Below, piece after piece: positions 2,017-14,842 of a DNA stretch of 16,121 nucleotides. The notes under the pieces are model-generated. The model did not search any database. It worked only from the letters and a program-made list of their open reading frames with translations, and was not told the origin of the DNA. The stretch is taken from positions 1-16,121 of the forward strand of contig MHDQ01000044.1 of the NCBI GenBank assembly GCA_001803565.1, read 5' to 3'. The stretch is from Nitrospinae bacterium RIFCSPLOWO2_12_FULL_45_22 (GTDB lineage: Bacteria > 2-12-FULL-45-22). A program made the position numbers and the translations under genes. How positions within the stretch are numbered: the first letter of the stretch is position 1; every line of letters begins with the position of its first letter.

Positions 2017-3690
2017 CTATATGCCTTTGTTCCGCAATATCTGCACCGCTGTTGTAATCTCCACGGCTTGTGATTCAATAATAGCAATCAACTCATCTGG
2101 TGTCCTGCTATCTTCTCGATTCTTTCGGTTAGGATTAACCGCCTTAAGATCGTAATTTTTCGCCTCAATCTCTTCTATCGGGACTCGCCAGGAACGCCAA
2201 CTAGATTGCGGAATTTTGATTGTGGATTGCGGACTGTCTTTATTCCGCATTCCAAATTCTGCATTCAACAATTGAAAGAACTCCTCAAATTGTTCTGCAG
2301 TTAAGGGCTGCTTTTTAGTTATATTGATATCGGATAAATCGTAATACCAGATTTCTTTCGTAGGCCCCCCTTTGTTAAAAAATAAGAGGTTAGTCTTGCT
2401 TGCTGCCCCGGCATTCATGAAAACCTTTGGCGGAAGACTCACGATGAGCCATAGGTTGCATTCATTAAGGAGTTTACGCTTGGTCTGGACAAAGGCAGTC
2501 TCATTTGTGCGGAACAAGACCCCTTCATCCATCACAATCCCGCATCTCCCACCCGGCTTGAGACTATCCATCACATGTTGCAGAAAAAGAACCTGCGTAG
2601 CGCTAGTCTTATAGGCGAAGCAAGTCTGGGCCTCTTTCCCCTCTTTACCGCCGAATGGAGGATTGGTAAGCACCACATCAAAAAGGGCTGGTGCGCTGGA
2701 GAAGAGCCCACCATAAACCTCAAGCCCCGTCAGTGTGTTTCCATGCCAGATATGGGGTTCATCAATTTCCTGGAGCACGAGGTTTGCCAACGCAATCGGA
2801 TAAACCAGGTTTTCCTTTTCTCGGCCATAAAAGGTGCTGGTTTTAAGAATTGCTATTTCTTCCCCTGTGTTTGCCTTCTGCCTCATGAGTTGATATGCTT
2901 GCGCTAAAAACCCCCCGGTTCCGCAACCCGGATCGTAGACTGTCTCTCCGACCTCTGGGTTAATTACCCTCACCATCACCCGGATAACCTCTCTTGGCGT
3001 AAAGAACTGTCCACCGTCATTGTTTTTCTCCCCCATCTGCTGGAGCAATCCTTCATACACCTGTGAGAGGGTAAACATGTGGGTCTCATCAACCGTTACC
3101 GAATGCTGATTTCGGATTGTGGATTGCGGAATCTTAGATTGAGGAGTTTCTAATATATCCGCATTCCGCATTCCCAATTCCACATTCAAATTGTGGATTT
3201 TATCAAGGATATCCAGGAGGTTACGCTCAGTATCTATCCCGGTCTTTTCAATGGACGAAAAAACCTCACTAATGACTTTCTGCCGAGGAGTGGCTCCTGG
3301 TTTGCTTTTAAGGTCTCGTAGATAAGGTATAAGTTCCGCGTTTACAAAGGACATAAATGCCCCGAGCGTGCTGTTTTGAAGCTCTTTTCTTTTCAACCCT
3401 TGAACTTTTAAACCCTGCGACTCTTTAACTTTGTTTTGTGGCGGTGCGGCCCAGTCGCACCAGCGATATGGATATTCCAAAGACGGTCTAAAATCCGCGC
3501 CTACTGCCTTTGCCTGCTCTGCCTCTTTCTCTTCCCGCTCATCAAGGATACGAAGGAAGAGCATCCAGGTAAGTTCCGGCACATACTGAAGAGCCCCGGC
3601 CCGGCCGGAGCGCCGCATAATATCGCAGATGCCTTTGATGTAGGCATTCAGCGATTGCGGGGTAGAAATTTTGCGGTTGTTTTTAGCCAT
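2017..3690 (-). CDS. hsdM: Type I restriction-modification system DNA methyltransferase subunit HsdM
   Basis: The 557-residue product is an adenine-N6 DNA methyltransferase that pairs with HsdS to modify host DNA. The N-terminal helical domain spans about residues 1-165 (LNAYIKGICDIMRRSG near the start). The methylase domain follows, with GGQFFTPREV (226-235), AdoMet motif I DPGCGTGGF (253-261) and catalytic motif IV NPPF (343-346). Three low-complexity stretches break the usual architecture: about 88-104 (KESQGLKVQGLKRKEL), 169-197 and 476-496. The last two are translated copies of the repeat family described below, and all three keep the frame open. The start at 3690 has a GAGGAG site and overlaps the HEPN stop by 8 bases, implying coupled translation. 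HsdR and HsdS lie upstream on the same strand, separated from this gene by Gabija. Confidence 0.93.
   Translation of the reverse strand: MAKNNRKISTPQSLNAYIKGICDIMRRSGRAGALQYVPELTWMLFLRILDEREEKEAEQAKAVGADFRPSLEYPYRWCDWAAPPQNKVKESQGLKVQGLKRKELQNSTLGAFMSFVNAELIPYLRDLKSKPGATPRQKVISEVFSSIEKTGIDTERNLLDILDKIHNLNVELGMRNADILETPQSKIPQSTIRNQHSVTVDETHMFTLSQVYEGLLQQMGEKNNDGGQFFTPREVIRVMVRVINPEVGETVYDPGCGTGGFLAQAYQLMRQKANTGEEIAILKTSTFYGREKENLVYPIALANLVLQEIDEPHIWHGNTLTGLEVYGGLFSSAPALFDVVLTNPPFGGKEGKEAQTCFAYKTSATQVLFLQHVMDSLKPGGRCGIVMDEGVLFRTNETAFVQTKRKLLNECNLWLIVSLPPKVFMNAGAASKTNLLFFNKGGPTKEIWYYDLSDINITKKQPLTAEQFEEFFQLLNAEFGMRNKDSPQSTIKIPQSSWRSWRVPIEEIEAKNYDLKAVNPNRKNREDSRTPDELIAIIESQAVEITTAVQILRNKGI
2203..2267. 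repeat. ATTCCGC/GATTGCGG inverted repeat inside hsdM (C-terminal copy)
   Basis: The left arm has GATTGCGG-type units (2203-2235) and the right arm ATTCCGCATTCC-type units (2241-2267), in opposite orientation. On the coding strand the copy is translated as NAEFGMRNKDSPQST and so on (HsdM residues 476-496), in frame, between the methylase core and the C-terminal segment. Confidence 0.8.
3101..3190. repeat. ATTCCGC/GATTGCGG inverted repeat inside hsdM (N-terminal copy)
   Basis: The left arm (3101-3142) carries GGATTGTGGATTGCGG units and the right arm (3157-3190) ATTCCGCATTCCC units. It is read in frame as VELGMRNADILETPQSK and following residues (HsdM 169-197), placed exactly between the N-terminal helical domain and the methylase domain. 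Confidence 0.8.
3379..3429. repeat. Second low-complexity repeat type inside hsdM
   Basis: Degenerate tandem units close to CAACCCTTGAAC and TTTTAAACCC encode the in-frame KESQGLKVQGLKRKEL stretch of HsdM. The units differ from the ATTCCGC family. Only one copy is visible in this window, so it is a tentative call. Confidence 0.45.
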
Positions 3691-4084
3691 TTAATTTCTC
3701 CTCGGGGAACATGGTCTTAATAAAACTCTTAGCCTCTTCCAAATCTTTCTCGATATCTTCACAGGTAAGCTCTAAATCTCCAAGAGGAGGATATCTATCA
3801 GCAAAATAATATCCTGTTATACGTTCACATAATAGGTAGAAATTTTGAAGTTCAGAATTATATCGAATGGCTTCGTCCAGGAGAGCATCAAGTTCGTGGA
3901 TCTTTTTAAGCTTCCAGCCGCACCGGAGAAGAAAGGCCTTAAGATACTTTTCCACACTCTGCTGGAGGAAAAAACCTGCCGCCTCTGGGTCCTGATGCTT
4001 TAAATTTCTTTTTGCTCGCTCCCAATCCTTACGAGCTATCTTTAACCAATCCTCCATATCCGAGTATTCATCAGATTTATTCAT
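3683..4084 (-). CDS. HEPN domain protein (toxin-like partner of MNT)
   Basis: The 133-residue product has the all-helical HEPN pattern: a WLKIARKDWERAKRNL helix (13-28), AGFFLQQSVEKYLKAFLL (36-53), KIHELDALL around His63, and a Y-x-x-x-RYP motif near 92-99. Small HEPN proteins encoded next to MNT nucleotidyltransferases usually form type VII-like toxin-antitoxin pairs in which HEPN is an RNase toxin. The usual R-x4-6-H catalytic motif is not clearly present here (R54 and H63 are nine positions apart), so RNase activity is uncertain. The start overlaps the MNT stop (ATGA) and the stop overlaps the hsdM start by 8 bases, so the three genes probably form one coupled unit. The HEPN fold call is fairly sure; the toxin role is inference. 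Confidence 0.82.
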   Translation of the reverse strand: MNKSDEYSDMEDWLKIARKDWERAKRNLKHQDPEAAGFFLQQSVEKYLKAFLLRCGWKLKKIHELDALLDEAIRYNSELQNFYLLCERITGYYFADRYPPLGDLELTCEDIEKDLEEAKSFIKTMFPEEKLNG

Positions 4085-4398
4085 AGTGTAATCCCTTCTT
4101 CTAATATATGACGAACAAATTGATCCCCTTTTTTTCGCCTTTTTTCTACTTCGTCGGGAGTTAATACAATGGGGGACAGAGGAAGCCCGTTTCGCAAATC
4201 ACGCATAAGACCTCTCACCCTTGCCATCCTTTCAAAGAAGCGCTCATTAGTGGGTGCGATAATAAAAAGGTCTATATCGCTATCTTCCGTTTCCTCTCCT
4301 GTAGCATAAGACCCGTAGAGGATGACCTTCTCGGCATGATATTCTTTCTTCAATCTCTCACTTATCTTTCGCAGCCGTTCGTATATTTCCTGGTTCAT
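4081..4398 (-). CDS. MNT-type minimal nucleotidyltransferase (antitoxin-like)
   Basis: The 105-residue product has the minimal DNA polymerase beta-like nucleotidyltransferase signature G29-S30, ten residues, then D41-x-D43 (in LYGSYATGEETEDSDIDLFI), which binds metal and nucleotide. In characterised HEPN/MNT pairs the MNT protein transfers AMP to the HEPN toxin and silences it. The third catalytic acid that usually sits on a later strand is not evident: the expected position reads LPLSPIVL. The start at 4398 has GGAAGG seven bases upstream; that site lies in the last codons of an hsdM-like relic. The stop overlaps the HEPN start by four bases. Confidence 0.85.
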   Translation of the reverse strand: MNQEIYERLRKISERLKKEYHAEKVILYGSYATGEETEDSDIDLFIIAPTNERFFERMARVRGLMRDLRNGLPLSPIVLTPDEVEKRRKKGDQFVRHILEEGITL

Positions 4399-4402
4399 AT
4401 CG

Positions 4403-4489
4403 TCACCTTCCTAATTTGGCCTTAGTATCGCCGATGCCCTTGATATATGCGCCAAATTGAGAAAATAGGGTCTGAGCAAGAATCTCATC
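4403..4489 (-). pseudogene. Relic of the hsdM 5' end upstream of MNT-HEPN
   Basis: Between stop codons this frame reads SQFGAYIKGIGDTKAKLGR and then TGA. It aligns with HsdM residues 12-30 (QSLNAYIKGICDIMRRSGR). At the DNA level 4421-4450 matches 3616-3645 at 24 of 30 positions by my count. There is no start codon. Its last codons (GGA AGG TGA) form the ribosome binding site of the MNT gene. It lies on the same strand and about 800 bases upstream of the true hsdM start, with MNT-HEPN between. Chance similarity is possible because the match is short, but the parallel case at hsdS makes a relic more likely. Confidence 0.6.
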
Positions 4490-4632
4490 TTATTGGTATC
4501 AAAGCTTATAAATTCTTTTTCCTTCTGGCAACTATCAATTATTATAAAGACCGCACGTCTTTCCCTCACATTTTCGTTTTATCAATATGAAAGCTCCGGT
4601 CATTTTAACTCCCAAGAAGAACTATATCATTG
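4490..4632. other. AT-rich spacer between gajB and the hsdM relic
   Basis: No gene is visible. It probably contains one junction of the Gabija insertion. On the minus strand a possible promoter reads TTGCCA (4526-4531) and TATAAG (4505-4510) with a 15-base spacer, which could drive MNT-HEPN-hsdM, but the spacing is short and this is weak. Confidence 0.35.
4546..4562 (-). terminator. Hairpin downstream of gajB
   Basis: AAAGAC-GTGCG-GTCTTT on the minus strand forms a six-pair stem about 70 bases after the gajB stop. No clean T-run follows, so it may be only a weak terminator or a processing site. Confidence 0.35.
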
Positions 4633-6474
4633 TCAAAAATAAAATTGATTCAGAATATTACTTTTGTCATTTTCTGGGAACATAATTGTGACAGACTGTC
4701 TTGCGCGGGTCACACCAACATAAAATAGCTTCCTAAAATTTAGAGTATCCTTGAAACTCCTAGAGTCAACATAAGGTAAAATTATATGATCAAATTCTTT
4801 CCCCTTTGCCTGATGAATCGTTAAGACATAAATTCCTCTTCTCAGTCTCTGTATGCGTGCAAACTGAAACTGGAGGAACTTACCCTCTATCAATTCAATT
4901 ATTTCTGATGGAGACAGATTGGGATGAACAGTGGCAATGCCTGCAAGGGATTCATAGAGATTAAAGATATCTCTATTGATTCTAAAAGCTCTTCTCAAGA
5001 TATCGAGTTTTTTACTAATCTCTCCGAGCAACGAGGAAATCGCATCTAATTTTGTCGCTAACAGATCATTTATATTCTCAATCAACAATGTGGTTTCTTC
5101 TTTTCTATAGCTCCCCTTGTCAATTGGGCCACCTATTTGGAGATAACTCTTCTCTATTTTATCCCACGGAACCGTATAATTACCATCGCACGATTCTGTT
5201 AAAATGGATCGATAAACATAAAGAATTATTTTAAGCTTGTTAGACGTTACATCTCCAAGGGAAATTATTAGCCCTCTAAAGAAATTGTGTTGTTTATCTC
5301 CTTTGCTGATTTCTTTACACCCAATACCAAATTTTCTAAAGTGCCTGTTAATCTTATGTATATAATCATTCCGATAGAACAGAACTCCAATACTTGATAA
5401 AGGCTCCTGTCTTTGAAGTGATCGCACATATTTATCCAACAAATTAAAACAACCGACTGGAGCAGCTCTTCCTTGAGCATCGAAGGGTTGTAGTTTAAAG
5501 TCAGAGCAATTACGACAATCTATCGAATTATTTTGCTCCTCTCGATAGTTAAATCGGAGATTTTCGAATATCCGTTTTAACTCAGGCTTATCTTTGAATC
5601 TATGCAAAGTGTTAAGGAATTTGGGTTGTATGTTGTAAAAATCCTTTGCTTGCCGGAGACGATCTAATGCAGCACCTCGCCACTCATATATCTGCTGAAG
5701 CTCATCTGCAAAAAGCAGGAGATAACCGTTGCCCTTCAATCTCTTAACAATTTCAAACTGTAGATCCGATGAATCCTGAAACTCATCTACAATAATCACA
5801 GGATACTTCTCTTGATAAATTTCTATTAGGACATTAGATTCGGAGATTATCCTATAAAAGTAATATCCAAAATCGTCAAAATATATTCGACCATTTCTGT
5901 TTTCGTTCAATATGAATTCCCTGATGGGATGAGTATATGCTTTCCACTTGTCAGGGAATTTTATTGGATAGTGAGGTGTCGGAAAAGCAGGGTTATAATA
6001 CTCAAGCATATTTGATAACTGCTCTAATTCCTGATTTCTCTGGTTCTCTCCTCTATGAAGAGCAGGTATTGATGAGTCTTTACGGATAAAAGACTCGAGG
6101 GCGTTATATCTTTCCTCAGGTGATATAATTTCCAAATTAAAAGGTAGTCCCAAATATGTCCTGAAAGCCCATACCTTTTGTCGGAAAAAGCTATGAAAAT
6201 TTGTTATCTCAATTCTTTTCTGGGTTTCCTTTGACAATATACGATCAGCCTCTATCTGCAATTCGGCACGGGCATTTTTAGAAAAGGTTAAGAAGAGAGC
6301 CCTTTGGTGGGGTTTTAATCGTTCCCCTTTATCAAGACCTTTCTCTATAATTGACTGAGCATATAGAACACCAGTTACTGTCTTTCCTGAACCAGGGGGA
6401 GCTTCTACAAGAATCACCTTATCTCTACAGTTGATAATACATTCTTGGTCAGGATCAGGATAGATAATAGACAT
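4633..6474 (-). CDS. gajB: Gabija helicase GajB (UvrD/PcrA-like superfamily 1)
   Basis: The 613-residue product has superfamily 1A helicase motifs in order: Walker A APPGSGKT (25-32), motif Ia-like LFLTFSKNARAEL (60-72), Walker B VDEFQD (229-234), motif III FADELQQIYEWRGA (255-268), motif V TIHQAKGKEFD (552-562) and motif VI FYVGVTRAR (584-592). A UvrD-like helicase directly after an OLD-type ATPase/TOPRIM protein is the defining pair of the Gabija anti-phage system, in which GajB assembles with GajA. The start at 6474 overlaps the gajA stop by 20 bases. It is longer than the roughly 500 residues of the well-known Bacillus GajB; the extra length appears to lie in the central region, which holds a CxxC (320-323) and the 400-540 helical segment. 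The gene is visibly more AT-rich than hsdR and carries no ATTCCGC repeats. Confidence 0.88.
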   Translation of the reverse strand: MSIIYPDPDQECIINCRDKVILVEAPPGSGKTVTGVLYAQSIIEKGLDKGERLKPHQRALFLTFSKNARAELQIEADRILSKETQKRIEITNFHSFFRQKVWAFRTYLGLPFNLEIISPEERYNALESFIRKDSSIPALHRGENQRNQELEQLSNMLEYYNPAFPTPHYPIKFPDKWKAYTHPIREFILNENRNGRIYFDDFGYYFYRIISESNVLIEIYQEKYPVIIVDEFQDSSDLQFEIVKRLKGNGYLLLFADELQQIYEWRGAALDRLRQAKDFYNIQPKFLNTLHRFKDKPELKRIFENLRFNYREEQNNSIDCRNCSDFKLQPFDAQGRAAPVGCFNLLDKYVRSLQRQEPLSSIGVLFYRNDYIHKINRHFRKFGIGCKEISKGDKQHNFFRGLIISLGDVTSNKLKIILYVYRSILTESCDGNYTVPWDKIEKSYLQIGGPIDKGSYRKEETTLLIENINDLLATKLDAISSLLGEISKKLDILRRAFRINRDIFNLYESLAGIATVHPNLSPSEIIELIEGKFLQFQFARIQRLRRGIYVLTIHQAKGKEFDHIILPYVDSRSFKDTLNFRKLFYVGVTRARQSVTIMFPENDKSNILNQFYF

Positions 6475-8344
6475 TGTCTTTAATCTTACCTGTAGCGAAT
6501 CTTTGAATTATCCCAGCAAGTTTAACAAAGGTTTCAGGGATCCCCTCTTTATTATTTCTTATTGCCTCTGCAATTATTCTACTTTGTCTTACTGACTTGC
6601 AATCCATAGGTGCTTTCTTACCCGCAATTAGAAGATGTAAGAGTTTTCGTAATTGCATTTCATCAAACTTAGTTTTCATCTCCTTAACCCATTCCGGAAA
6701 GGATTCGGTTGATTTAATTATATCTAAGTCTTCTGAACTAATAATGTTATCTTTGTCCACAAAATATTGATGGATATTCTTTCTTAGCTGGCTCCACGGT
6801 ATATACTCCTCAACACAATTTTTTATTCCTTCGATCAGTCCTGCAAGGCAGGCCTCTTTTGTAAGTAATTTGTCATAGGTATTCCTTTCTGAATCTTTAG
6901 GTAAAACGATAGTAAAACTACTACTAGCTATGATTCTATTCAGTTCATCTCCTGATTTATCATTGTCCACAATAGAGATTACACTAAATTCAAGTCTTCT
7001 AAAGAAATTTGCGTACTTATGAATATCCCCGTGTCCACCACAGTCTATAGACTCAACTCCCAGAGCTTCTAATCCTTCAAATAAGACATCTTCATTATCT
7101 GATTTTAGGGTTTTTCCCTCGAGGGCTCTAAAGAAAATGGGCAAACCTCCTCTTTCGGAAGGACCCTCTACAAGTAAAATATGTTTGGCGAAGAATGCTT
7201 GAAGCAATTGATTTCTTTCATATCTTTCAAAAAACTTTAGCTCTTCGGGAGAACATCTCTTTTCAATGGAGATTATCGAGTGTTCATCTGCTCCAGGTAG
7301 AACGATGTTGACAGAACCAAGGTCAAATGCAGATATGATGTCTGGTGAGTGAGAGGAGACAAATAATTGGAACCTCTTAGACTCGGGATTTTGAAGTCGT
7401 CTTGCAATGAGGCGTTGGTAATATGGTTCGAGGTTATGCTCTGGTTCCTCAAACGCTAATATTAAGTTTTGGCTTTTATCTTCGGATATAATTCTAAAAA
7501 TTGTTGAAATCAGGACAGCATCTTGCATCCCAGAACCTTGCATTTCGATAGGAATTTCTGTATCCGTATCAACTCCTCGAAGCACTAAGTTTAAACTCTG
7601 CAATACCTTTCGTTCACTGAGATTTAAGATATTAAGTCGCATGGCTTCTACATTGTCCTCGATAAATTTAAGCCTTGCAATCTCAGACCTCAATTGCTCA
7701 AAGCTTCTTTTAAACTCAAGGTTTTCATCAAGTACAGGTTGTGATTCCTTCATCTTTTCAACTATTTGGGTAATACTGGAACTGAGATCGTGTTTCCCCA
7801 AGAGTTTTGAAAACATAGAGTTTTGATAAAATGCTAATTCATGCAATGGATCTCTATTAGAAGGGATATATAAAAACCCTATTTTCTCCTTCTCATCCCT
7901 ACTCACTGTCCTCTTATTAGATTCTGGTTTAGGATAAAATATTGTAGGAGTAAAGGTACTATCACATTCTAATCTTATTCTTAGTACCAATTTATTGTTA
8001 CCCTTAAATGCTTCTTCAAAATCTTCATAGGGCAGAAATCGCCCTTCAGGATCCATGACTTCAAGATGTTCATCAAAATGAGAAGCAATATCCTTTTCTT
8101 CTTCATCTATAGCGAATATCAGTTCGATGACAATAGGTGTTTCAGTTTTTCTCTTGTGGAAATCAAACTCCGTAAATGACTCTCGGTACCAAGGAATATA
8201 AGGATTGAGACAGAAATCTAGTGCTTTGAAGATTGTTGTTTTACCAGAGTTATTACCCCCTATAATTAGATTAATATCATTAGGCCTATAATCTAATTTT
8301 TTGATCGAACGAAAATTTTCAATACTTATTCTGGCAATCTTCAT
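6455..8344 (-). CDS. gajA: Gabija endonuclease GajA (OLD-family ATPase with TOPRIM)
   Basis: The 629-residue product starts with an ABC-type ATPase head: ISIENFRSIKKL (7-18), Walker A GNNSGKTT (30-37), a long helical insert, signature QGSG (269-272), Walker B LILAFEEPEHNLEP (294-307) and a H-loop SSHSPDII (330-337). A TOPRIM nuclease domain follows, with LLVEGPSE (390-397, Glu393) and VDNDKSG (459-465, Asp460 and Asp462). This is the class 2 OLD nuclease layout of GajA, which cuts DNA and is controlled by nucleotide binding. The partner helicase gene overlaps its 3' end. The start at 8344 follows an AAAGGA-like site about nine bases upstream. A stand-alone OLD nuclease is the alternative, but the adjacent UvrD-like gene makes Gabija the better call. 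Confidence 0.9.
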   Translation of the reverse strand: MKIARISIENFRSIKKLDYRPNDINLIIGGNNSGKTTIFKALDFCLNPYIPWYRESFTEFDFHKRKTETPIVIELIFAIDEEEKDIASHFDEHLEVMDPEGRFLPYEDFEEAFKGNNKLVLRIRLECDSTFTPTIFYPKPESNKRTVSRDEKEKIGFLYIPSNRDPLHELAFYQNSMFSKLLGKHDLSSSITQIVEKMKESQPVLDENLEFKRSFEQLRSEIARLKFIEDNVEAMRLNILNLSERKVLQSLNLVLRGVDTDTEIPIEMQGSGMQDAVLISTIFRIISEDKSQNLILAFEEPEHNLEPYYQRLIARRLQNPESKRFQLFVSSHSPDIISAFDLGSVNIVLPGADEHSIISIEKRCSPEELKFFERYERNQLLQAFFAKHILLVEGPSERGGLPIFFRALEGKTLKSDNEDVLFEGLEALGVESIDCGGHGDIHKYANFFRRLEFSVISIVDNDKSGDELNRIIASSSFTIVLPKDSERNTYDKLLTKEACLAGLIEGIKNCVEEYIPWSQLRKNIHQYFVDKDNIISSEDLDIIKSTESFPEWVKEMKTKFDEMQLRKLLHLLIAGKKAPMDCKSVRQSRIIAEAIRNNKEGIPETFVKLAGIIQRFATGKIKDNVYYLS

Positions 8345-8371
8345 CTTTATCTATTCCTTTTTGTTGCTTTT

Positions 8372-8377
8372 ATTATA
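8372..8377 (-). promoter_or_regulatory. Possible -10 element for gajAB
   Basis: A perfect TATAAT on the minus strand lies 28 bases upstream of the gajA start. No good -35 hexamer sits at the expected distance. It suggests Gabija has its own promoter, as expected for an inserted cassette. Confidence 0.4.
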
Positions 8378-8426
8378 GAATTCTTGGGTATCCAACTATT
8401 GATGAGTTTCCTTTTGAATTTCCATT

Positions 8427-8720
8427 GTCCTTGAGACTTTAAATGATGTAGAAATTAGGTAGAAATTAAGGACAGACACTATTTATTCATGCTTGGTTTC
8501 TTAGGCCTGTCTTTTAACAAAGCATTTAACACTCTACCTACTTTTTTCCTAACTCGGAAAAAATATTGTTGTTCCCAATGTATAATAAAGAAAGGGACAT
8601 GTCCCATATTATTATTTTTTTATAGGCATTTACACATTACTAGCCTTCCATCAAAATATAGTGCTTCTAGAAACATTTAAACATAAATTTTTGGGGGTAG
8701 AAGTCCTTTAGGCTAGTCAA
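8427..8720 (-). other. AT-rich spacer with probable decayed mobile-element end
   Basis: This part of the 478-base gap between hsdS and gajA has no convincing gene. It holds a perfect 12-base palindrome GGGACATGTCCC (8594-8605). On the minus strand there is a short open frame ending in KKVGRVLNALLKDRPKKPS and TAG, followed directly by GTGTCTGTCCTTAATTTC. That layout recalls to me the 3' ends of Y1 (REP-associated) transposase genes, but the match is from memory and weak. Confidence 0.3.
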
Positions 8721-8751
8721 GTACATAGGCCCATTTTTTTATATGTTTGAA

Positions 8752-8826
8752 TTAGCAAATTAAATATAGGAAGTGTACCCCTACACCCGTAATTAAGCCT
8801 CCCTTCTGTTCTGAATTATTAATCAT
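8752..8826 (-). pseudogene. Truncated 24-codon frame coupled to the hsdS stop
   Basis: An ATG overlaps the hsdS stop (ATGA) and opens a frame reading MINNSEQKGGLITGVGV and seven more residues to TAA. ATGA coupling is the usual signature of the next gene in an hsd operon, so this may be the start of a gene whose remainder was lost when Gabija entered. The peptide itself is not recognised. A small hairpin GTGTA-GGGG-TACAC (8773-8786) lies within it. Confidence 0.35.
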
Positions 8827-10088
8827 AACTCACCTCTAAATGCCTTTCTTAAAATTGACTGCGGTAAGGCATTCAATGCGGATTGCTGATTTCGGATTGC
8901 GGATTGTAGATTTTCAACTTGCACCATTTTTTCTTTGAGTTCATCAATAATATTTTTCTGGACTTCTATTGATGGTACAGGGATAACGTAATCTGATAAA
9001 AAACTATCAGGCACTCTCTGTTGGCCAACAGCACCAGTAAAATACGCTGTTGCCTCATTGAGAAAGTAGGGTTGTCGAATAAAACACCAAACCCATTCAG
9101 ATAGAGCTTCATTGCTGGGTCTCAAGACATGAAATTCTGTTGTCCCAAAACCTATTCCGTCAATCAAATTTTTTCCAATAACATGTTTTCCATTTTGCAT
9201 ACATGGCGTAATTTTGGCAAAGAGAACATCGTTTTCTTCGAAGTAAGTATACCCCTTAGCAACCTTTGAATATGGCACAACTTCTGGTTTAGCAACTGTA
9301 CCCGTTTTCTCATCCACTGCGGCCATTGGAATAAATGATGTTGGAGAATCAGAAGAGCGAGTGAAATTCTTAGGACGAGAAGAATTAATTTTGCATACTT
9401 CTCCAATCTTCTTTCTTTCCCACTTCTTTGCCGCTTCGCTTTCGAAGACCTCTTGTAGGTAGGCGGCGGGGAGGGCTTTGGCTGCCTCCAGTTGCTTTTC
9501 GCAAGCGGTTCGAGCGCGCCCCACCTCTTGCATCAGTTCCTGAAGCTTTGTGGTGATGCGCTTTTGTTCCTCTATTGGTGGTAAAGGGATAATGTAATTT
9601 AATAAAAAGCTATCGGGCACTCTTTGCTGGCCAACAGCTCCTGTAAAATACGTAGTTGCTTCTTGTAGGAAATGAGGTTGTCGTATAAAGTAATAAATCC
9701 ATTCAGGTAAAATTTCATTATTGGATCGTAAAACATGAAATTCTGTCGTGCCAAAACCTATTCCATCAATTAAATTTCTTGCTATAACATGCTTGCCATT
9801 TTGCATGCATGGCGTAATTTTGGCAAAAAGAACATTATTTTCCTCAAAATAAGTATAGCCTTTAGCAACCTTTGAATATGGGACAATTTCGGGTTCAGCA
9901 ATAGTGCCTGTTTTTTCATCAACTGCTGCCATTGGAACAAATGTAGTTGGTGCATCGTGAGAACGAATAAAATTCTTAGGCCGACGAGGATTTATCTCAC
10001 ATACCTGCCCCAACTTTACTACTCTCCAATCTTCAGGGATTAAGCTGATTTCTGTTTGTTTGTATTTTATATGGTTAATTTTAGTCAT
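8823..10088 (-). CDS. hsdS: Type I restriction-modification specificity subunit HsdS with duplicated recognition domain
   Basis: The 421-residue product has the usual order: short N-terminus with LIPEDWRVVKLG, target-recognition domain 1 (about 24-172), a helical spacer (172-222), target-recognition domain 2 (about 226-374) and a C-terminal helix ending LPQSILRKAFRGEL. It sets the DNA sequence recognised by the HsdM/HsdR complex. Residues 24-178 and 226-380 align without gaps at about 121 of 155 identical positions, including MAAVDEKTGT, VPYSKVAKGYTYFEEN and GAVGQQRVPDSFL. Type I S subunits normally carry two different domains, so near-identical halves predict a symmetric target. In the second spacer QSAIRNQQSA (395-404) is a translated copy of the ATTCCGC repeat family. 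The start at 10088 is four bases after the preceding gene's stop. Confidence 0.93.
   Translation of the reverse strand: MTKINHIKYKQTEISLIPEDWRVVKLGQVCEINPRRPKNFIRSHDAPTTFVPMAAVDEKTGTIAEPEIVPYSKVAKGYTYFEENNVLFAKITPCMQNGKHVIARNLIDGIGFGTTEFHVLRSNNEILPEWIYYFIRQPHFLQEATTYFTGAVGQQRVPDSFLLNYIIPLPPIEEQKRITTKLQELMQEVGRARTACEKQLEAAKALPAAYLQEVFESEAAKKWERKKIGEVCKINSSRPKNFTRSSDSPTSFIPMAAVDEKTGTVAKPEVVPYSKVAKGYTYFEENDVLFAKITPCMQNGKHVIGKNLIDGIGFGTTEFHVLRPSNEALSEWVWCFIRQPYFLNEATAYFTGAVGQQRVPDSFLSDYVIPVPSIEVQKNIIDELKEKMVQVENLQSAIRNQQSALNALPQSILRKAFRGEL
8876..8912. repeat. GATTGCGG half-repeat inside hsdS
   Basis: Only the left-arm type is present (GCGGATTGC, TTTCGGATTGCGGATTG). It encodes the in-frame QSAIRNQQSA segment in the C-terminal helical spacer of HsdS. 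Confidence 0.7.
8949..9413 (-). repeat. Direct repeat encoding HsdS recognition domain 2
   Basis: This stretch and 9555-10019 are direct repeats at a 606-base (202-codon) period, for example the shared GGCCAACAGC at 9023 and 9629. The copies have diverged at many third positions, so the duplication is not very recent. Confidence 0.85.
9555..10019 (-). repeat. Direct repeat encoding HsdS recognition domain 1
   Basis: Partner of the repeat at 8949-9413. The protein copies are about 78% identical by hand count. Confidence 0.85.
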
Positions 10089-10092
10089 TTGT

Positions 10093-10524
10093 TTAAGTTT
10101 TTTTAATATATTCTACCCATCCAAAAGGCAATAAATCACATTTCCAGGGTAGTATTTCATATATACTTAAATGGTCTTTCGTTATTAGCTCTATTATTTT
10201 CCAAAAATATTCATCTATTTGCCAAGGATAATGTCCTTTACTAATTCTTTCTTTCCAATGTCCTCGTGCTTCCTTTGGTAACATGGTCCACCAACAATCT
10301 ACACTTATATGATACATCCGATAAACAATCCTCCACTTATCTAATTCTGGTTGCGGATCTTCATAGTCGCCAGATATTAAAGGATCATGATCTTTCAATC
10401 GATGTCTAATACCTGGCATTTCTTGAGAATATTTATCCATTTGTGTATCTACTTTAACTTCTGGATAACCACACGCCCCAAAAGCCATTTTCCAAAGTTT
10501 CCTATGCAGTCTATTATTTGGCAT
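10093..10524 (-). CDS. Unrecognised Trp-rich protein between hsdS relic and hsdS
   Basis: The 143-residue product is not recognised. It has nine Trp (about 6%), many His, Lys and acidic residues, no signal peptide and no membrane span, so it is probably a soluble cytoplasmic protein. Notable segments are LWKMAFGACGYPEVK (10-24), VDCWWTMLPKEARGHW (75-90) and ILPWKCDLLPFGWVEY (124-139). A strong GGGAGGAT site precedes the ATG at 10524; it is formed by the Val-Gly-Gly-Tyr codons of the hsdS relic, which the gene overlaps by 11 bases. Its stop is four bases from hsdS, so it should be cotranslated with HsdS. Its position suggests an accessory or control protein for the specificity subunit, but that is inference only. 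Coding status is supported by the length, the site and the tight spacing. Confidence 0.6.
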   Translation of the reverse strand: MPNNRLHRKLWKMAFGACGYPEVKVDTQMDKYSQEMPGIRHRLKDHDPLISGDYEDPQPELDKWRIVYRMYHISVDCWWTMLPKEARGHWKERISKGHYPWQIDEYFWKIIELITKDHLSIYEILPWKCDLLPFGWVEYIKKT

Positions 10525-10582
10525 ATCCTCCCACTTTCCAATCCTCAGGGATTAAGCAAAAGTTTCTGTCGGCTTTGGTCAT
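10514..10582 (-). pseudogene. Relic of the hsdS 5' end
   Basis: The 22-codon frame MTKADRNFCLIPEDWKVGGY plus Ala-Lys and TAA matches the start of the intact HsdS (MTK, then LIPEDWRVV). CTTAATCCCTGAGGATTGG is the same in both except for one base, and 22 of 24 bases match over a slightly longer stretch. The relic breaks off at the point where the 143-residue gene begins. Its ATG lies inside the 3' end of the regulator remnant, as a normal operon junction would. Confidence 0.75.
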
Positions 10583-10913
10583 TTGAGCCCTTTGCAAGCC
10601 CTTTATGAGTCGTTTGACGCCTTTCTGGCCCCTTTCTGACCCCTTTGGCTCCTCTTGGCACATATTCTGTTCCCTTACCAGTGATACCAATTTGCTCAAT
10701 AATGTTTCTTTTAACCAAATCTTCTAAATCTCTTGTAGCGGTTCTCTTTGAAACCATATTAAGTTCCTGATATTTTTTATTCGTAATCTTCTCTTTCTCC
10801 TTCACATACATCACCGCCTTTATCTGCCGCTCGCTCAGTCCCATCTTTGTCAGATTTTCCTCTGTATAAATATCTTTGTAGAAATAGACCGAAAAGCCGC
10901 CCATCTCTTCCAT
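10545..10913 (-). pseudogene. C-terminal remnant of an AlbA_2/COG2865-type DNA-binding regulator
   Basis: The 122-residue frame carries only the last part of a protein that is usually about four times longer: GGFSVYFYKDIYTEENL (5-21), then a winged helix-turn-helix LSERQIKAVMYVKEKEKITN (26-45) and SKRTATRDLEDLVKRNIIEQIG (55-76), ending in a basic tail. In the family an N-terminal AlbA_2 (Schlafen-like) domain and a GHKL-type ATPase region precede it; neither is in this window. The frame starts directly at the edge of an ATTCCGC repeat block without a good ribosome binding site and lies in the same frame as the four-helix-bundle stop codon upstream. It looks like the 3' end of a gene split by insertion of that gene. 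Such regulators are common companions of hsdS in type I operons. It may still be translated at a low level. Confidence 0.7.
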
Positions 10914-11026
10914 TGCGGAATTCGGAGTGCGGATTGATGATGTCGGAATGCGGAATTCGGATTGTGAAATTATTTGCCTTTTTTATCATTTCCTGTATTC
11001 CCCATTCCGAATTCTGCATTCCCCAT
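10912..11026. repeat. ATTCCGC/GATTGCGG repeat block between regulator remnant and four-helix-bundle gene
   Basis: A left arm of GCGGAATTCGGAGTGCGGATT-like units (10912-10970) and a right arm of ATTCCCCATTCCGAATTCTGC-like units (10995-11026) flank about 25 bases of T-rich spacer. The right arm encodes the last residues of the four-helix-bundle protein (DGECRIRNGEYRK). Confidence 0.8.
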
Positions 11027-11402
11027 CTTTTCGATTTCTCCGAGCCGTTTTTATGGATGTAACCACAATTGCAATAATTTCGTTAGCTTCATTCATTAGG
11101 CGTTGAATCTGATTTTGCTCTACCAATCTTGCATCAAGTAGTAATTCTAACCAGTAAAGGGTTTCATCGGCTTCCTCTTCAACAATACCCATTTTAGAAA
11201 TAAAATCAGCCCTTGATCTCGCTCTACAAGCTGCACGATAATTAGCTCCAATAGATGTTCCCGACCTCAGGATCTGTCTACCCAATACATCTGCAATACG
11301 ATTTTTAGGGAGATTTTCTACCAATCTAATTATTTCCAAAGCAAACTTCCTTGTTCTTTCTTTCAAATCTTCATTCCGCATTCCCAAATCCGCATTCCGC
11401 AT
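10986..11402 (-). CDS. Four-helix-bundle protein (S23/bAvd-like family)
   Basis: The 138-residue product has the conserved core of the four-helix-bundle family first known from 23S rRNA intervening sequences: LKERTRKFALEIIRLVENLP (13-32), LGRQILRSGTSIGANYRAA (40-58), ARSRADFISKMGIVEEEADE (61-80) and LYWLELLLDARLV (82-94), ending IVVTSIKTARR. The family is also related to the accessory protein of diversity-generating retroelements; no reverse transcriptase is present here. Biochemical function is unknown. Both ends are made of the repeat family: MRNADLGMRNEDL at the N-terminus and DGECRIRNGEYRK at the C-terminus. Translation may start at 11402, directly after the radC stop, or at the Met at 11381. 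The bracketing repeats suggest the gene moved in with them. Confidence 0.88.
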   Translation of the reverse strand: MRNADLGMRNEDLKERTRKFALEIIRLVENLPKNRIADVLGRQILRSGTSIGANYRAACRARSRADFISKMGIVEEEADETLYWLELLLDARLVEQNQIQRLMNEANEIIAIVVTSIKTARRNRKDGECRIRNGEYRK

Positions 11403-11403
11403 T
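11372..11403. repeat. ATTCCGC half-repeat at the start of the four-helix-bundle gene
   Basis: A single right-arm type block (CATTCCGCATTCCCAAATCC and one more unit) encodes MRNADLGMRN. With the block at 10912-11026 it brackets the gene. Confidence 0.75.
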
Positions 11404-12446
11404 TATATCAGTCCTGCCATTGCAAAGCTAAAATAATCCTCTTGGTTTTTACCAATGATTATGTGGTCTAAAACCTTTATACCGAACAGGTTACAGGCAT
11501 CTATAATGGCGTTTGTTATTTTGCTATCTTCCGCCGATGGCTCGGTATCTCCTGAGGGATGATTATGAACTAAAATAATTGACGAGGCAGACCGCAATGT
11601 GGCCTCTTTTATAATCTCTTTCGGATCAACTATACTTGCGTTAATGCTGCCTTTACTGATCTCTACATTGTGAAGGGGTTTGTTCTTTATATCCAGGAGG
11701 ATCACACTAAAAAACTCTTTCTTGGCATCCCTCAGGTATGGGCCGTAATATTCCGCTACATAGGCAATCACATCATCAGCCTTTTTTATCCTCTTCTTTT
11801 TTTCCGCTTCTTCTTTAAAAAATCTTTTACCCAGCTCCAGTGCCACTTTTATTTGAACCGCCTTGGCATACCCAATACCATCCATCTTACAAATTTCAGA
11901 GATAGGTGCGGAATCTAGCTCTCTTAATGTCCCAAACCGATTCAGTAACCTTTTGGCTAACTCTTCTGCATTAATCCCTTCTTTGCCGGTTCGCAGGATT
12001 ATGGCCAGGAGTTTGGATAATGGAAGAGAGTCTGGCCCATATTTTATCGCCATCTCCCTGGGCCTTTCTTCTTTTATCCACTCCCTGATCGGGCGATTTT
12101 CTCTATGGGCCGCTACCTGCTCCCTCACTGCTTTCCTTATCCTGTCGCAATCATCAGCGGTTTTGATGTTTAACTGGGCAATGATTTCCTGAGATCTGGC
12201 GTCAGTTAATAGCCCTTTCCTGGAGCATCTGAGAAAAATCTTGCCCCTTTTGCTACATAAAGGATAAATGGCATTCGCCACCAGGAAATCCATTATCTCC
12301 ATTGTGGAATGCGGATTGTGAATTGCGGAATCATTCGAGTGCGGATTGATGATTTCGGATTGCTGATTAGAATATTGATGGCCTCTTTGCTCATTTTTCA
12401 TTCTTCTATTCCCCATTCTAAAATCCGCATTCCTCATTGTGTTCAT
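11403..12446 (-). CDS. radC: RadC family protein (JAB/MPN domain, UPF0758)
   Basis: The 347-residue product ends in a RadC-type JAB domain with the metal-binding HNHPSGD (294-300) and Asp307, preceded by a helix-hairpin-helix region (LDSAPISEICKMDGIGYAKA, 177-196) and the LLAIILRTG segment (146-154). RadC proteins are common in mobile and defence regions; a role in DNA repair is disputed and the real function is unknown. Residues 53-135 form an extra N-terminal region (FLVANAIYPLCSKRGKIFLR and following) longer than in Escherichia coli RadC. The first 48 residues are a translated repeat block. The start at 12446 overlaps the hsdR stop (ATGA), so it is probably the native start despite the repeat; Met49 (12302) is the alternative. 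Confidence 0.88.
   Translation of the reverse strand: MNTMRNADFRMGNRRMKNEQRGHQYSNQQSEIINPHSNDSAIHNPHSTMEIMDFLVANAIYPLCSKRGKIFLRCSRKGLLTDARSQEIIAQLNIKTADDCDRIRKAVREQVAAHRENRPIREWIKEERPREMAIKYGPDSLPLSKLLAIILRTGKEGINAEELAKRLLNRFGTLRELDSAPISEICKMDGIGYAKAVQIKVALELGKRFFKEEAEKKKRIKKADDVIAYVAEYYGPYLRDAKKEFFSVILLDIKNKPLHNVEISKGSINASIVDPKEIIKEATLRSASSIILVHNHPSGDTEPSAEDSKITNAIIDACNLFGIKVLDHIIIGKNQEDYFSFAMAGLI
12301..12438. repeat. ATTCCGC/GATTGCGG inverted repeat at the 5' end of radC
   Basis: The left arm (12301-12369) has six or so GCGGATT units, and the right arm (12409-12438) ATTCCCCATTCTAAAATCC-type units. It encodes RadC residues 4-48, in frame, including NADFRMGN and IHNPHST. Confidence 0.8.
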
Positions 12447-14842
12447 GCGGCGAATAGTCTCCTCTTGGCCTCATTAATAATCTCGTGAGGTTCTCCAAGT
12501 ATTTTTAAGGCCCCAAGACCGCCTGCCTTAGCCACATCCGGGGCATTGAATATATAAGGATTTTCCAGCTCTTCGGTGCCGCCCCTTTCAAACTGCCTGG
12601 CAAGGGCGATCAAGGTTTCTGCGGCCCTCGGAGGCAAACTCTTAAACCACTCACTATGTTTGTATCGTAATGCCGAAACACGCTCAGCACGGTCTTTGGG
12701 AACGATTCCATATCCAATCACCGCAAGGACATCGTAAAGGTCGCAATCTTTGCGGTTTAAAAGCTCCCGGAGCAATCGCAAGCCTTGCCCATCACCGGGC
12801 AACACTTCAATAAGTGCTTTTCGCCTCTGTGGGTCAATCCAGCAGTTTCTGAAGTCTTCCAGGGTCTTGACCTCTTCCAGCAAGCGAGCCGCTATGATCT
12901 GTTGATATTCCTCGAGGGTGATCATCCCCAGTTTACCCTTTACCTGGGTCGCTATATAAGTCCCAGCCGGATTTATATGAACATCAAACCCTTCTACCCG
13001 GATTATTTTTTCTTTTTCTACCTCCTCAGGTTCTTTAGACTCCCGTGTGGGCGAAGGGCGGCACTCAAAACCTTTTCCTAAGAGACGGGTGGCATTGGTG
13101 TAATCATAGACCCGAAACATCAATTTATTAGTCGGCAAGTGAATTCTTGAACCCCTTCCCATCATCTGCTGGAAAGAAATAGGAGAGCGGACATATTTGA
13201 AAAAGACGACATTGCGCAAAATGGGGACATCAACCCCTGTGGTTATTAAATCAACGGTAGTGGCGATAAAATGGCTGCGCTCGGAGCCGCGCAAATCGGC
13301 AATATACTGGGTCCCTCTTACCGCGGCAGTGCATTTGAAGGCATAAGGCTCGGCGCGAATGTGGAATTTGGATTGCGGACTGCGGAATTCAGAATTTGTT
13401 TTCTTATTCCACATTCCCAGTTCCGCATTCTGCATTCGTTTCCACCATTGGGCATAGAGATTGTTCATTTCGGCGGCAACTGCATCGGCATGGGTATCCC
13501 GGGTGCAAAAGATGACGGTCTTCTGGTGGGGACCGCCGGTTTGAAGAAACATTTCGAAGAGGTCCTGGCACATAGCTTTTACCCTGTCAGGCAACTGAAT
13601 TATATCTTCAAAGGACGGCGCCTCGTAAGTCTCACGAGTCTCATCGGGAGTGAGTGCTTGCCCCGTGGTGGCGTCCCGTGCCCCCAGTACCTCAATATCC
13701 TCCCGGGTTACCCCTTTTATATCGAGATTCACCTCTTGTCTGATGATTTCGCACGCCGGAAGATAACCGTCTTCAATCCCCTGCGCCATGTCGTATTCAT
13801 AGACTGGTTCACCAAAGTATTTGAGATTATCGGCAGTTATTTCTTCATCCTCCCCACGTTCATCCTGGGTCCCTCCTTCAAAAGAACGTGGGGTTGCGGT
13901 GAGCCCGATTTGAACCGCATCTGGGTTTTGGCGCAGCACGAGACTCCATTTCCCCCACGCGCTTCTATGACATTCATCAATAATGATATGGCTGAAATAA
14001 TTTTGGGGATAATTCTCGAGGAAAAACCTGGCATCTTCCGTCTCTCCTGCCACATTAAGTGTCTGGTAGGTTGCAATCAAGATGCGGGCATTCTTCTGAG
14101 GCTTTGCTGTTGTTACTTCGGCTGCATCAGCCCCGAAGACATTCTGGAAAGCACCCAGGGCCTGGGTACGCAATTCATCCCGGTCGCAGATAAATAAGGC
14201 ACGGCGAAGCTGTCCAGCGTCCGCAATCTTCTTCAAGAGGTGCACCGCAATAAAAGTTTTTCCCGATCCGGTTGCCAGAAAGAGGAGTAATCTTTTTTGG
14301 CCCCTAACTATTTTCTCAAGCAAGGCCCGAATAGCAGCGTCCTGATAGTAGCGTCTGCTGGCCTCTCCACCTGGATATGGAACTAATAGCGGTTTGGCAG
14401 TTTCACTTTCCAGAGAAACCCCGATGGATTTTTCGTAGCGCCGACGCAATTCAGAGGGAGAGGGGAATTCTCCTAAGGGACGAGGCTTAGAAGTTAGACC
14501 GGTAAGCTGGTTGTATTCCACGAATAGATGTCCATTAGAAGAATAAACAAAAGGAACATGGTTCAAACGGGCATATTTCTTTGCCTGTTCAAGACCTTTA
14601 TCCGGAGGCTCATCGTTTCTCTTCGCCTCAATTAAGGCAATGGCTACCGGCTGGGTATTGATGTTTACCCGCACTCTCAAGAGATAATCTGTCCTACCCC
14701 ACTCTTTTCGTTTTGGCCGGCCATCTATGATATCAATCCCGTGCTCGGTCTCTTCACGGCGGATAAGGTCTTCTGTCCAGCCCCGCTGGTGGAGGACAGG
14801 GTCAATGAGTTTTGCTTTAGTATCGGCCTCGCTTAATGACAT
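12443..14842 (-). CDS. hsdR: Type I restriction-modification system motor/endonuclease subunit HsdR
   Basis: The 799-residue product is the translocase and nuclease subunit. The N-terminal nuclease domain has Asp52 and the I-E-A-K motif (71-74). The superfamily 2 helicase core has Walker A ATGSGKT (190-196), DECH (289-292) and the TATPRS segment (315-320). Helicase motifs continue with VIFCTRDTH (443-451), TTGVDVP (534-540) and QQMMGRGSR (558-566). The C-terminal part resembles the EcoEI-type R protein and binds the methylase core. The length is normal apart from an insertion at 471-495 that is a translated repeat. Its start at 14842 has AAGGGG seven bases upstream and a strong promoter behind it, so this is the first gene of the operon. 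The stop overlaps the radC start. Confidence 0.95.
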   Translation of the reverse strand: MSLSEADTKAKLIDPVLHQRGWTEDLIRREETEHGIDIIDGRPKRKEWGRTDYLLRVRVNINTQPVAIALIEAKRNDEPPDKGLEQAKKYARLNHVPFVYSSNGHLFVEYNQLTGLTSKPRPLGEFPSPSELRRRYEKSIGVSLESETAKPLLVPYPGGEASRRYYQDAAIRALLEKIVRGQKRLLLFLATGSGKTFIAVHLLKKIADAGQLRRALFICDRDELRTQALGAFQNVFGADAAEVTTAKPQKNARILIATYQTLNVAGETEDARFFLENYPQNYFSHIIIDECHRSAWGKWSLVLRQNPDAVQIGLTATPRSFEGGTQDERGEDEEITADNLKYFGEPVYEYDMAQGIEDGYLPACEIIRQEVNLDIKGVTREDIEVLGARDATTGQALTPDETRETYEAPSFEDIIQLPDRVKAMCQDLFEMFLQTGGPHQKTVIFCTRDTHADAVAAEMNNLYAQWWKRMQNAELGMWNKKTNSEFRSPQSKFHIRAEPYAFKCTAAVRGTQYIADLRGSERSHFIATTVDLITTGVDVPILRNVVFFKYVRSPISFQQMMGRGSRIHLPTNKLMFRVYDYTNATRLLGKGFECRPSPTRESKEPEEVEKEKIIRVEGFDVHINPAGTYIATQVKGKLGMITLEEYQQIIAARLLEEVKTLEDFRNCWIDPQRRKALIEVLPGDGQGLRLLRELLNRKDCDLYDVLAVIGYGIVPKDRAERVSALRYKHSEWFKSLPPRAAETLIALARQFERGGTEELENPYIFNAPDVAKAGGLGALKILGEPHEIINEAKRRLFAA
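13359..13437. repeat. ATTCCGC/GATTGCGG inverted repeat inside hsdR
   Basis: The left arm GTGGAATTTGGATTGCGGAC and following (13361-13394) and the right arm ATTCCACATTCCCAGTTCCG and following (13405-13437) are imperfect inverted copies. It encodes QNAELGMWNKKTNSEFRSPQ plus about five residues (HsdR 471-495), in frame, in the loop before the EPYAFKCTA segment. Confidence 0.8.

Follow-up and report, generated by a model that had tools for sequence, protein, structure and literature searches.

Heptanucleotide arrays in a bacterial hsd operon as probable miniature copies of a cassette carrying an IVP/S23 gene

The degenerate short repeats scattered through the hsd operon of Nitrospinae bacterium RIFCSPLOWO2_12_FULL_45_22 are probably miniature non-autonomous copies of a mobile cassette, in which a gene of the 23S_rRNA_IVP (S23) family lies between an array of a 7-nt unit u and an array of its reverse complement, where u is GGAWTKY and the parent occupies positions 10914-11404. 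Positions refer to the window, the whole stretch of 16,121 nt that was analysed (contig MHDQ01000044.1). The cassette is best read as a relative, outside rRNA, of the intervening sequences (IVS) of 23S rRNA.

Repeat blocks in the window

The blocks are degenerate tandem arrays of GGAWTKY, or of its reverse complement on the opposite strand, and over all seven blocks the spacing between consecutive units is exactly 7 nt in 37 of 49 cases. With up to two mismatches allowed, three units in a row are matched 28 times in the window, as against 0 in 30 dinucleotide shuffles. The unit is mostly without stop codons, such that three units give a 7-aa repeat, and the number of units per array varies.

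2203-2267, + strand: two-armed miniature, in frame in HsdM (insert 2, net +48 nt); hairpin z -5.0
3101-3187, + strand: two-armed miniature, in frame in HsdM (insert 1, net +81 nt); hairpin z -3.8
8876-8914, + strand: one-armed array of the GGAWTKY unit in the HsdS C-terminal coil
10914-11026: arrays 10914-10963 (+ strand) and 10995-11025 (- strand), together forming a hairpin
11366-11404, - strand: upstream cassette arm, rich in G on the coding strand of the IVP
12301-12438, + strand: two-armed copy at the hsdR-radC junction; hairpin z -3.1
13357-13437, + strand: two-armed miniature, in frame in HsdR (net +66 nt); hairpin z -3.8

A preliminary description of this DNA had reported seven blocks of a degenerate repeat, most full copies having two opposed arms. 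The blocks exist where it placed them, but those at 8876 and 11366 are one-armed and gave no hairpin when their folding was compared with that of shuffles. Among the five two-armed blocks, four fold better than 200 of 200 shuffles and the remaining one better than 199 of 200. The OLD-like/UvrD-like gene pair and the MNT-HEPN pair that lie between hsdS and hsdM (3683-8344) hold no copies of the unit.

The genome is a MAG of 3.67 Mb in 321 contigs and is 85% complete; genome-wide counts are the results of pattern searches. At up to two mismatches every GGAWTKY-array match in the 3.67 Mb falls on the contig of the window, inside 2203-13437, a count for an incomplete MAG in which copies with more than two mismatches could escape. 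The preliminary description would have counted against itself a lack of copies elsewhere together with conservation of the blocks as protein sequence; the former is what was found within this mismatch limit, but the latter does not hold, since homologues lack exactly those segments. Its suggestion of evolution by local expansion is partly borne out by the confinement of the unit to one operon and by the variable numbers of tandem units.

The IVP gene and its flanking arms

Overlooked in the preliminary description was a gene between the blocks at 10914 and 11366, whose 138 aa product matches Pfam PF05635 (E=1.3e-21). The features of this region are as follows.

10545-10913, - strand: C-terminal fragment of an AlbA_2-type gene, cut exactly at the cassette edge
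10914-10963, + strand: outer downstream arm of the IVP cassette, tandem units, adjoining the AlbA_2-type fragment
10986-11402, - strand: 23S_rRNA_IVP / S23 four-helix-bundle gene
10995-11025, - strand: second downstream array, hairpin partner of 10914-10963
11366-11404, - strand: upstream arm of the IVP cassette, tandem 7-nt units

The gene and the arrays are interlocked, with the IVP start codon lying inside the array at 11371-11402 and its 3' end inside that at 10995-11025. The arms at 10928-10963 and 11366-11401 are complementary over 36 nt at 78%, and in the predicted RNA fold the upstream arm pairs with 10914-10963 around the IVP ORF (z -2.7). We presume this IVP to be the parent gene of the GGAWTKY repeat family; within the window the only ties between it and the miniature copies are the common unit and the order of the arms. 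The AlbA_2-type fragment is homologous to the C-terminal part of a protein at locus L033, where the gene is full length (L033:2473-3846, 457 aa). The operon at L033 is syntenic and carries an IVP 66% identical to that of the window, framed likewise by the GGAWTKY unit.

None of the nine window proteins scanned belongs to a transposase family, the gene associated with the cassette being PF05635. Rfam found no rRNA in the window or in 14 cassette loci, and a known RNA family for the arms was rejected in that Rfam gave no match over them. The AlphaFold model of the window IVP has a mean pLDDT of 87.7 and four helices, and its matches to the S23 protein 2rld (Z 18.8) and to Xcc0516 (2gsc, Z 16.5) are secure. 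The model also resembles Avd of diversity-generating retroelements (DGRs), both alone (4dwl, Z 14.1) and in the DGR ribonucleoprotein (8ub7, Z 14.0), at a sequence identity of ~15%, although for helical bundles a Z near 13 may reflect merely a common arrangement of helices; the likeness to Avd is additionally supported by the literature (PMC10053308). The net charge of the protein core is near zero, which is not typical of a simple nucleic-acid binder. Four polar residues, Q43, S50, N54 and E80 in the numbering of the window IVP, are invariant across 20 diverse IVPs, and from this conservation they could possibly form an active or binding site.

Insertions in genes of the hsd operon

Copies lying in frame within four genes of the hsd operon had been proposed in the preliminary description, and this is correct for the two in HsdM and the one in HsdR, wrong for HsdS and not supported for radC. 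HsdM was aligned with 19 homologues from many phyla, most of them 70-77% identical; L037, whose translation is out of frame, was left out. Relative to these, insert 1 (block 3101) adds 27 aa (81 nt) and is present in the window only, and insert 2 (block 2203) adds 16 aa (48 nt) and recurs at the same site only in L048, a distant homologue. The HsdR insert (block 13357) adds 22 aa (66 nt), with 44 residues in the window and 22 in seven homologues. All three keep the frame, as had been claimed, when compared with many repeat-free homologues, and none of the net lengths is a multiple of 7. The earlier notion of a palindromic element spreading into coding linkers finds support in HsdM and HsdR.

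The HsdS block aligns without gaps with repeat-free homologues (SIEKQLEAINALP / SAIRNQQSALNALP) and is thus not an insertion; a similar C-terminal peptide is present in HsdS of L039 and L053. RadC homologues have their first residue opposite window residues 39-50, and the radC block is located before that point. The hsdR stop is at 12443 and radC probably starts near 12302; radC follows hsdR directly in L044, L045 and L055, with a gap of ~8 nt in L044 and L055. From the homologue starts and this short gap, block 12301 appears to be a filler of the junction that is putatively coding at most.

Comparison by eye with the empty sites of HsdM insert 1 and of a cobC-cobQ cassette described below revealed no recognisable target-site duplication of the kind seen with classical MITEs and insertion sequences, the flanks having diverged. 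Before insertion the two sites had a few bases in common with the unit (TTTGGAA in HsdM and AATGGA in cobC-cobQ), too few cases for a test.

Other short repeats are also seen in these genes. A second short-repeat insertion family, likewise overlooked in the preliminary description, lies in hsdM at ~3385-3440 (peptide KESQGLKVQGL); it is also present in L033 and L049 and is absent from the other homologues. The HsdM genes of L035 and L039 lack the window insert at the insert-2 linker and carry there a short, different heptamer-like insertion (ACCCTC type), so that this site has been used repeatedly. The two halves of hsdS at 8956-9255 and 9562-9861 are 80% identical over 300 nt, and hence the two target-recognition domains probably recognise one and the same half-site.

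The distribution of the inserts bears on an alternative account, which we consider possible though clearly less probable than the miniature-cassette explanation, namely that the operon was transferred horizontally from a heptamer-rich lineage and that the repeats are passengers that did not move in the window genome. The confinement of the unit to one operon in a genome of 3.67 Mb is consistent with this, as are the scattering of HsdM homologues at 70-77% identity across many phyla and the similar HsdS peptides in L039 and L053. The occurrence of HsdM insert 2 in both the window and L048 likewise shows that some copies are old, have travelled with the operon and did not originate in the window genome. 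However, none of the homologues compared has HsdM insert 1 or the HsdR insert, so that both arose after the split from these, and satellites of an IVP's own unit cluster in the same way at IVP genes of unrelated operons (ars and cob). As a history of the operon, transfer is compatible with the blocks being miniature copies of the cassette.

Arrays around IVP genes in other genomes

The sample of PF05635 genes came from the window genome, which has nine, and from 80 genomes in the phylum to which the L033 genome, recorded as Thermodesulfovibrionales, belongs; phylum names here follow the titles of genome records. The first 60 IVP loci were picked by score and by distance from contig ends, blind to their flanks, and more were added later. 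In several phyla most of the IVP genes examined are framed by inverted arrays, the motif of which changes from case to case, and this is well supported. Within 300 nt of the IVP gene, period-7 arrays take up 6.9% of the sequence upstream and 6.6% of that downstream, as against ~1% farther out; periods 8 and 9 are also enriched near IVP genes, whereas 5, 10, 11 and 12 are not and 6 is so in traces only. Arrays of period 7-9 are present on both sides in 41 of the 60 loci, counting a few runs that are N stretches, and the second is typically the reverse complement of the first.

When the upstream arm was matched to the reverse-complemented downstream arm at 81 IVP loci, the mean score was 21.6 within a locus and 8.74 +- 2.27 between loci, with a permutation maximum of 10.2 and a value of 8.6 for stretches 1 kb out. 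An arm score of at least 16 was reached at 71 of the 81 loci (87.7%) and at 3 of 211 control ORFs (1.4%), the other 10 IVP loci falling below it. The same kind of difference was seen in smaller samples taken from the phylum of the Ignavibacteriales genome G033 (15.9 vs 9.3) and from that of the Planctomycetota genome G028 (19.2 vs 8.5), with scores of at least 16 at only 17 of 30 Bacteroidota and 16 of 26 Planctomycetota loci.

That each IVP lineage has a unit of its own is also well supported. Units differ among the IVP genes of a single genome, and between genomes the arms are alike for 65% of IVP pairs at 60-80% protein identity, for 100% above 80% and for ~1% below 50%. Units of the window type, GGATTGC and GGAGTGC, are found with the IVPs closest to that of the window (62-67% identical), whose flanking genes are unrelated to those of the window. 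Of the 67 upstream arms that have a skew, 63 are rich in G on the coding strand of the IVP and 4 are not. Values of pN/pS for pairs of IVP genes are mostly 0.05-0.3, from which the protein is under purifying selection.

Satellites and movement of cassettes

Copies of an IVP's own unit more than 350 nt from the gene number 73, in 27 of 71 loci, as against 0-12 when units are shuffled among loci. Where such satellites form inverted pairs the upstream-type arm comes first, as it does in the cassette, in 16 cases and never the reverse; four of these are in the window, leaving 12:0 without it. In the complete chromosome of G047, whose IVP units include a GGTGAAGN type, an IVP in the ars operon has an 8-nt unit that recurs close to where ArsR and ArsA begin and in the linker joining the two ArsA halves; this unit is dispersed over the chromosome, and another unit stays mostly within 50 kb of its own IVP. 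G049 has one cassette with an IVP gene and arm pieces on 34 contigs, and among the satellite loci L371-L395, from three genomes of the G049 cassette's family, none holds that IVP.

Movement of whole cassettes is well supported, in that unrelated loci are occupied and an empty site is present. Loci L179 and L186, from two genomes, share 441 nt at 94% identity that end at the arms, and the flanking proteins are unrelated. A cassette of ~450 nt lies between cobC and cobQ in G047, where the CobQ N-terminal peptide derives from an arm; in most relatives examined cobC and cobQ are contiguous, most often with 25 nt between the reference points, and in one G047 relative, L297, cobQ is preceded by a different IVP. 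In L128 an IVP cassette separates leuC from leuD. A tie of the repeats to hsd or defence operons is rejected, since satellite-bearing IVP cassettes also occur in ars and cob and a cassette lies in leuCD.

Two further observations concern cobalamin loci. Unrelated repeat peptides (SHHASRITHHG, PHPNPLPQGERG) accumulate in the CobC linker in L278-L304, and an IVP cassette of the window genome itself (L242, G000:C39) shares a 10-kb stretch with two cobalamin riboswitches.

These data also weigh on the idea that the IVP gene is the passenger, in that arrays form and become inverted through slippage and template switching during replication, the IVP genes merely surviving between the arms. It would account for the highly variable array lengths, such as the different heptamer numbers among Coxiella strains (PMC4990558), and for the build-up of unrelated kinds of repeats in the same HsdM and CobC linkers. 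Nevertheless we regard it as unlikely, since the unit tracks the IVP lineage at non-homologous loci and differs between IVPs of one genome, arms flank 87.7% of IVP genes and only 1.4% of control ORFs, and slippage alone leaves the constant 16:0 arm order unexplained.

The simplest mechanism for the cassette explanation would be that the hairpin around the ORF, either as RNA or as single-stranded DNA, is recognised at its unit by an oligomer of its own IVP, which would thereby promote the copying of the whole cassette, or just of its arms, to other places. Both that the IVP drives this movement and how it does so are inferred. The copying could be by reverse transcription, a candidate because the IVP fold is common with that of DGR Avd, or by template switching in replication. 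Copies that lose the gene would persist as pairs of arms, and the arrays would afterwards lengthen and shorten through slippage. Within coding sequence, selection would spare only those copies that keep the frame, lack stops and lie in tolerant linkers.

Comparison with known systems

Rickettsial palindromic elements are palindromic repeats found in frame in protein genes at tolerated positions. The window copies are likewise palindromic and in frame at tolerated positions of proteins. To our knowledge the rickettsial elements are unrelated in sequence to the window repeats, and we know of no gene-bearing parent cassette for them.

A closer parallel to the gene-bearing cassette is the IVS of Coxiella burnetii 23S rRNA, in which tandem heptamers (GACAGAT) lie directly upstream of the S23p ORF and inverted repeats place the ORF in a loop; it has been termed a selfish element and is excised by RNase III (PMC4990558). 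The window cassette similarly has an ORF of the S23/IVP family, complementary flanks that close a stem and tandem heptamers upstream. It differs in that it and the sampled cassettes lie in protein operons and not inside a 23S rRNA gene, and in that cassettes of its type have gene-less satellites, including in-frame copies in proteins. An already described repeat family was rejected, since searches of the openly licensed literature found no account of IVP genes within inverted short tandem arrays outside rRNA, the Coxiella IVS being the nearest (PMC4990558).

REPIN/RAYT systems also combine a repeat-flanked gene with many non-autonomous hairpin copies and link the protein lineage to the repeat sequence (PMC3116915, PMC8266576), and dispersed inverted pairs of the unit that flanks the gene are found here too. 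However, the IVP is a four-helix bundle and not a Y1 (HUH) transposase, its units form tandem arrays of 7-9 nt, copies lie inside coding sequences and whole cassettes move. As the IVP gene is not a transposase, the relation is one of likeness and not of membership. Avd is the partner of the reverse transcriptase in DGRs (PMC10053308; PDB 4dwl, 8ub7) and shares its fold with the window IVP (Z about 14), but in the window neither a template/variable repeat pair nor a gene for a reverse transcriptase was noticed.

Geobacter metallireducens has multicopy elements of tandem heptanucleotides, mostly paired and both within and between genes, in which respect they resemble the window arrays; they are annotated there as predicted regulatory RNA elements or as binding sites of global regulators (IHF/HU) (PMC2700814). 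They are not known to be linked to an IVP gene. That the arrays here are such regulatory protein-binding sites and are not mobile is very improbable, since copies lie within coding linkers, units go with particular proteins and one cassette recurs almost unchanged at loci that are unrelated.

Implications

A broader generalization is that IVP/S23 proteins, each recognising its own 7-9-nt unit, provide the specificity in a large and so far undescribed class of transposase-free bacterial mobile elements, whose cassettes and arm pairs spread through genomes and into coding linkers, and that 23S rRNA IVSs are members that landed in rRNA; we see this as evenly balanced between true and false. It would link several observations that have stood apart: low-complexity peptides such as NSEFRIPHS/GMRNAE and SPLHPFTPS in environmental bacterial proteins, the multicopy heptanucleotide "regulatory" elements, the S23/four-helix-bundle genes and the 23S rRNA IVSs. 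The IVP family would gain a testable role, the recognition of its own short unit, and this reading suggests a path by which new linker sequence may enter functioning proteins.
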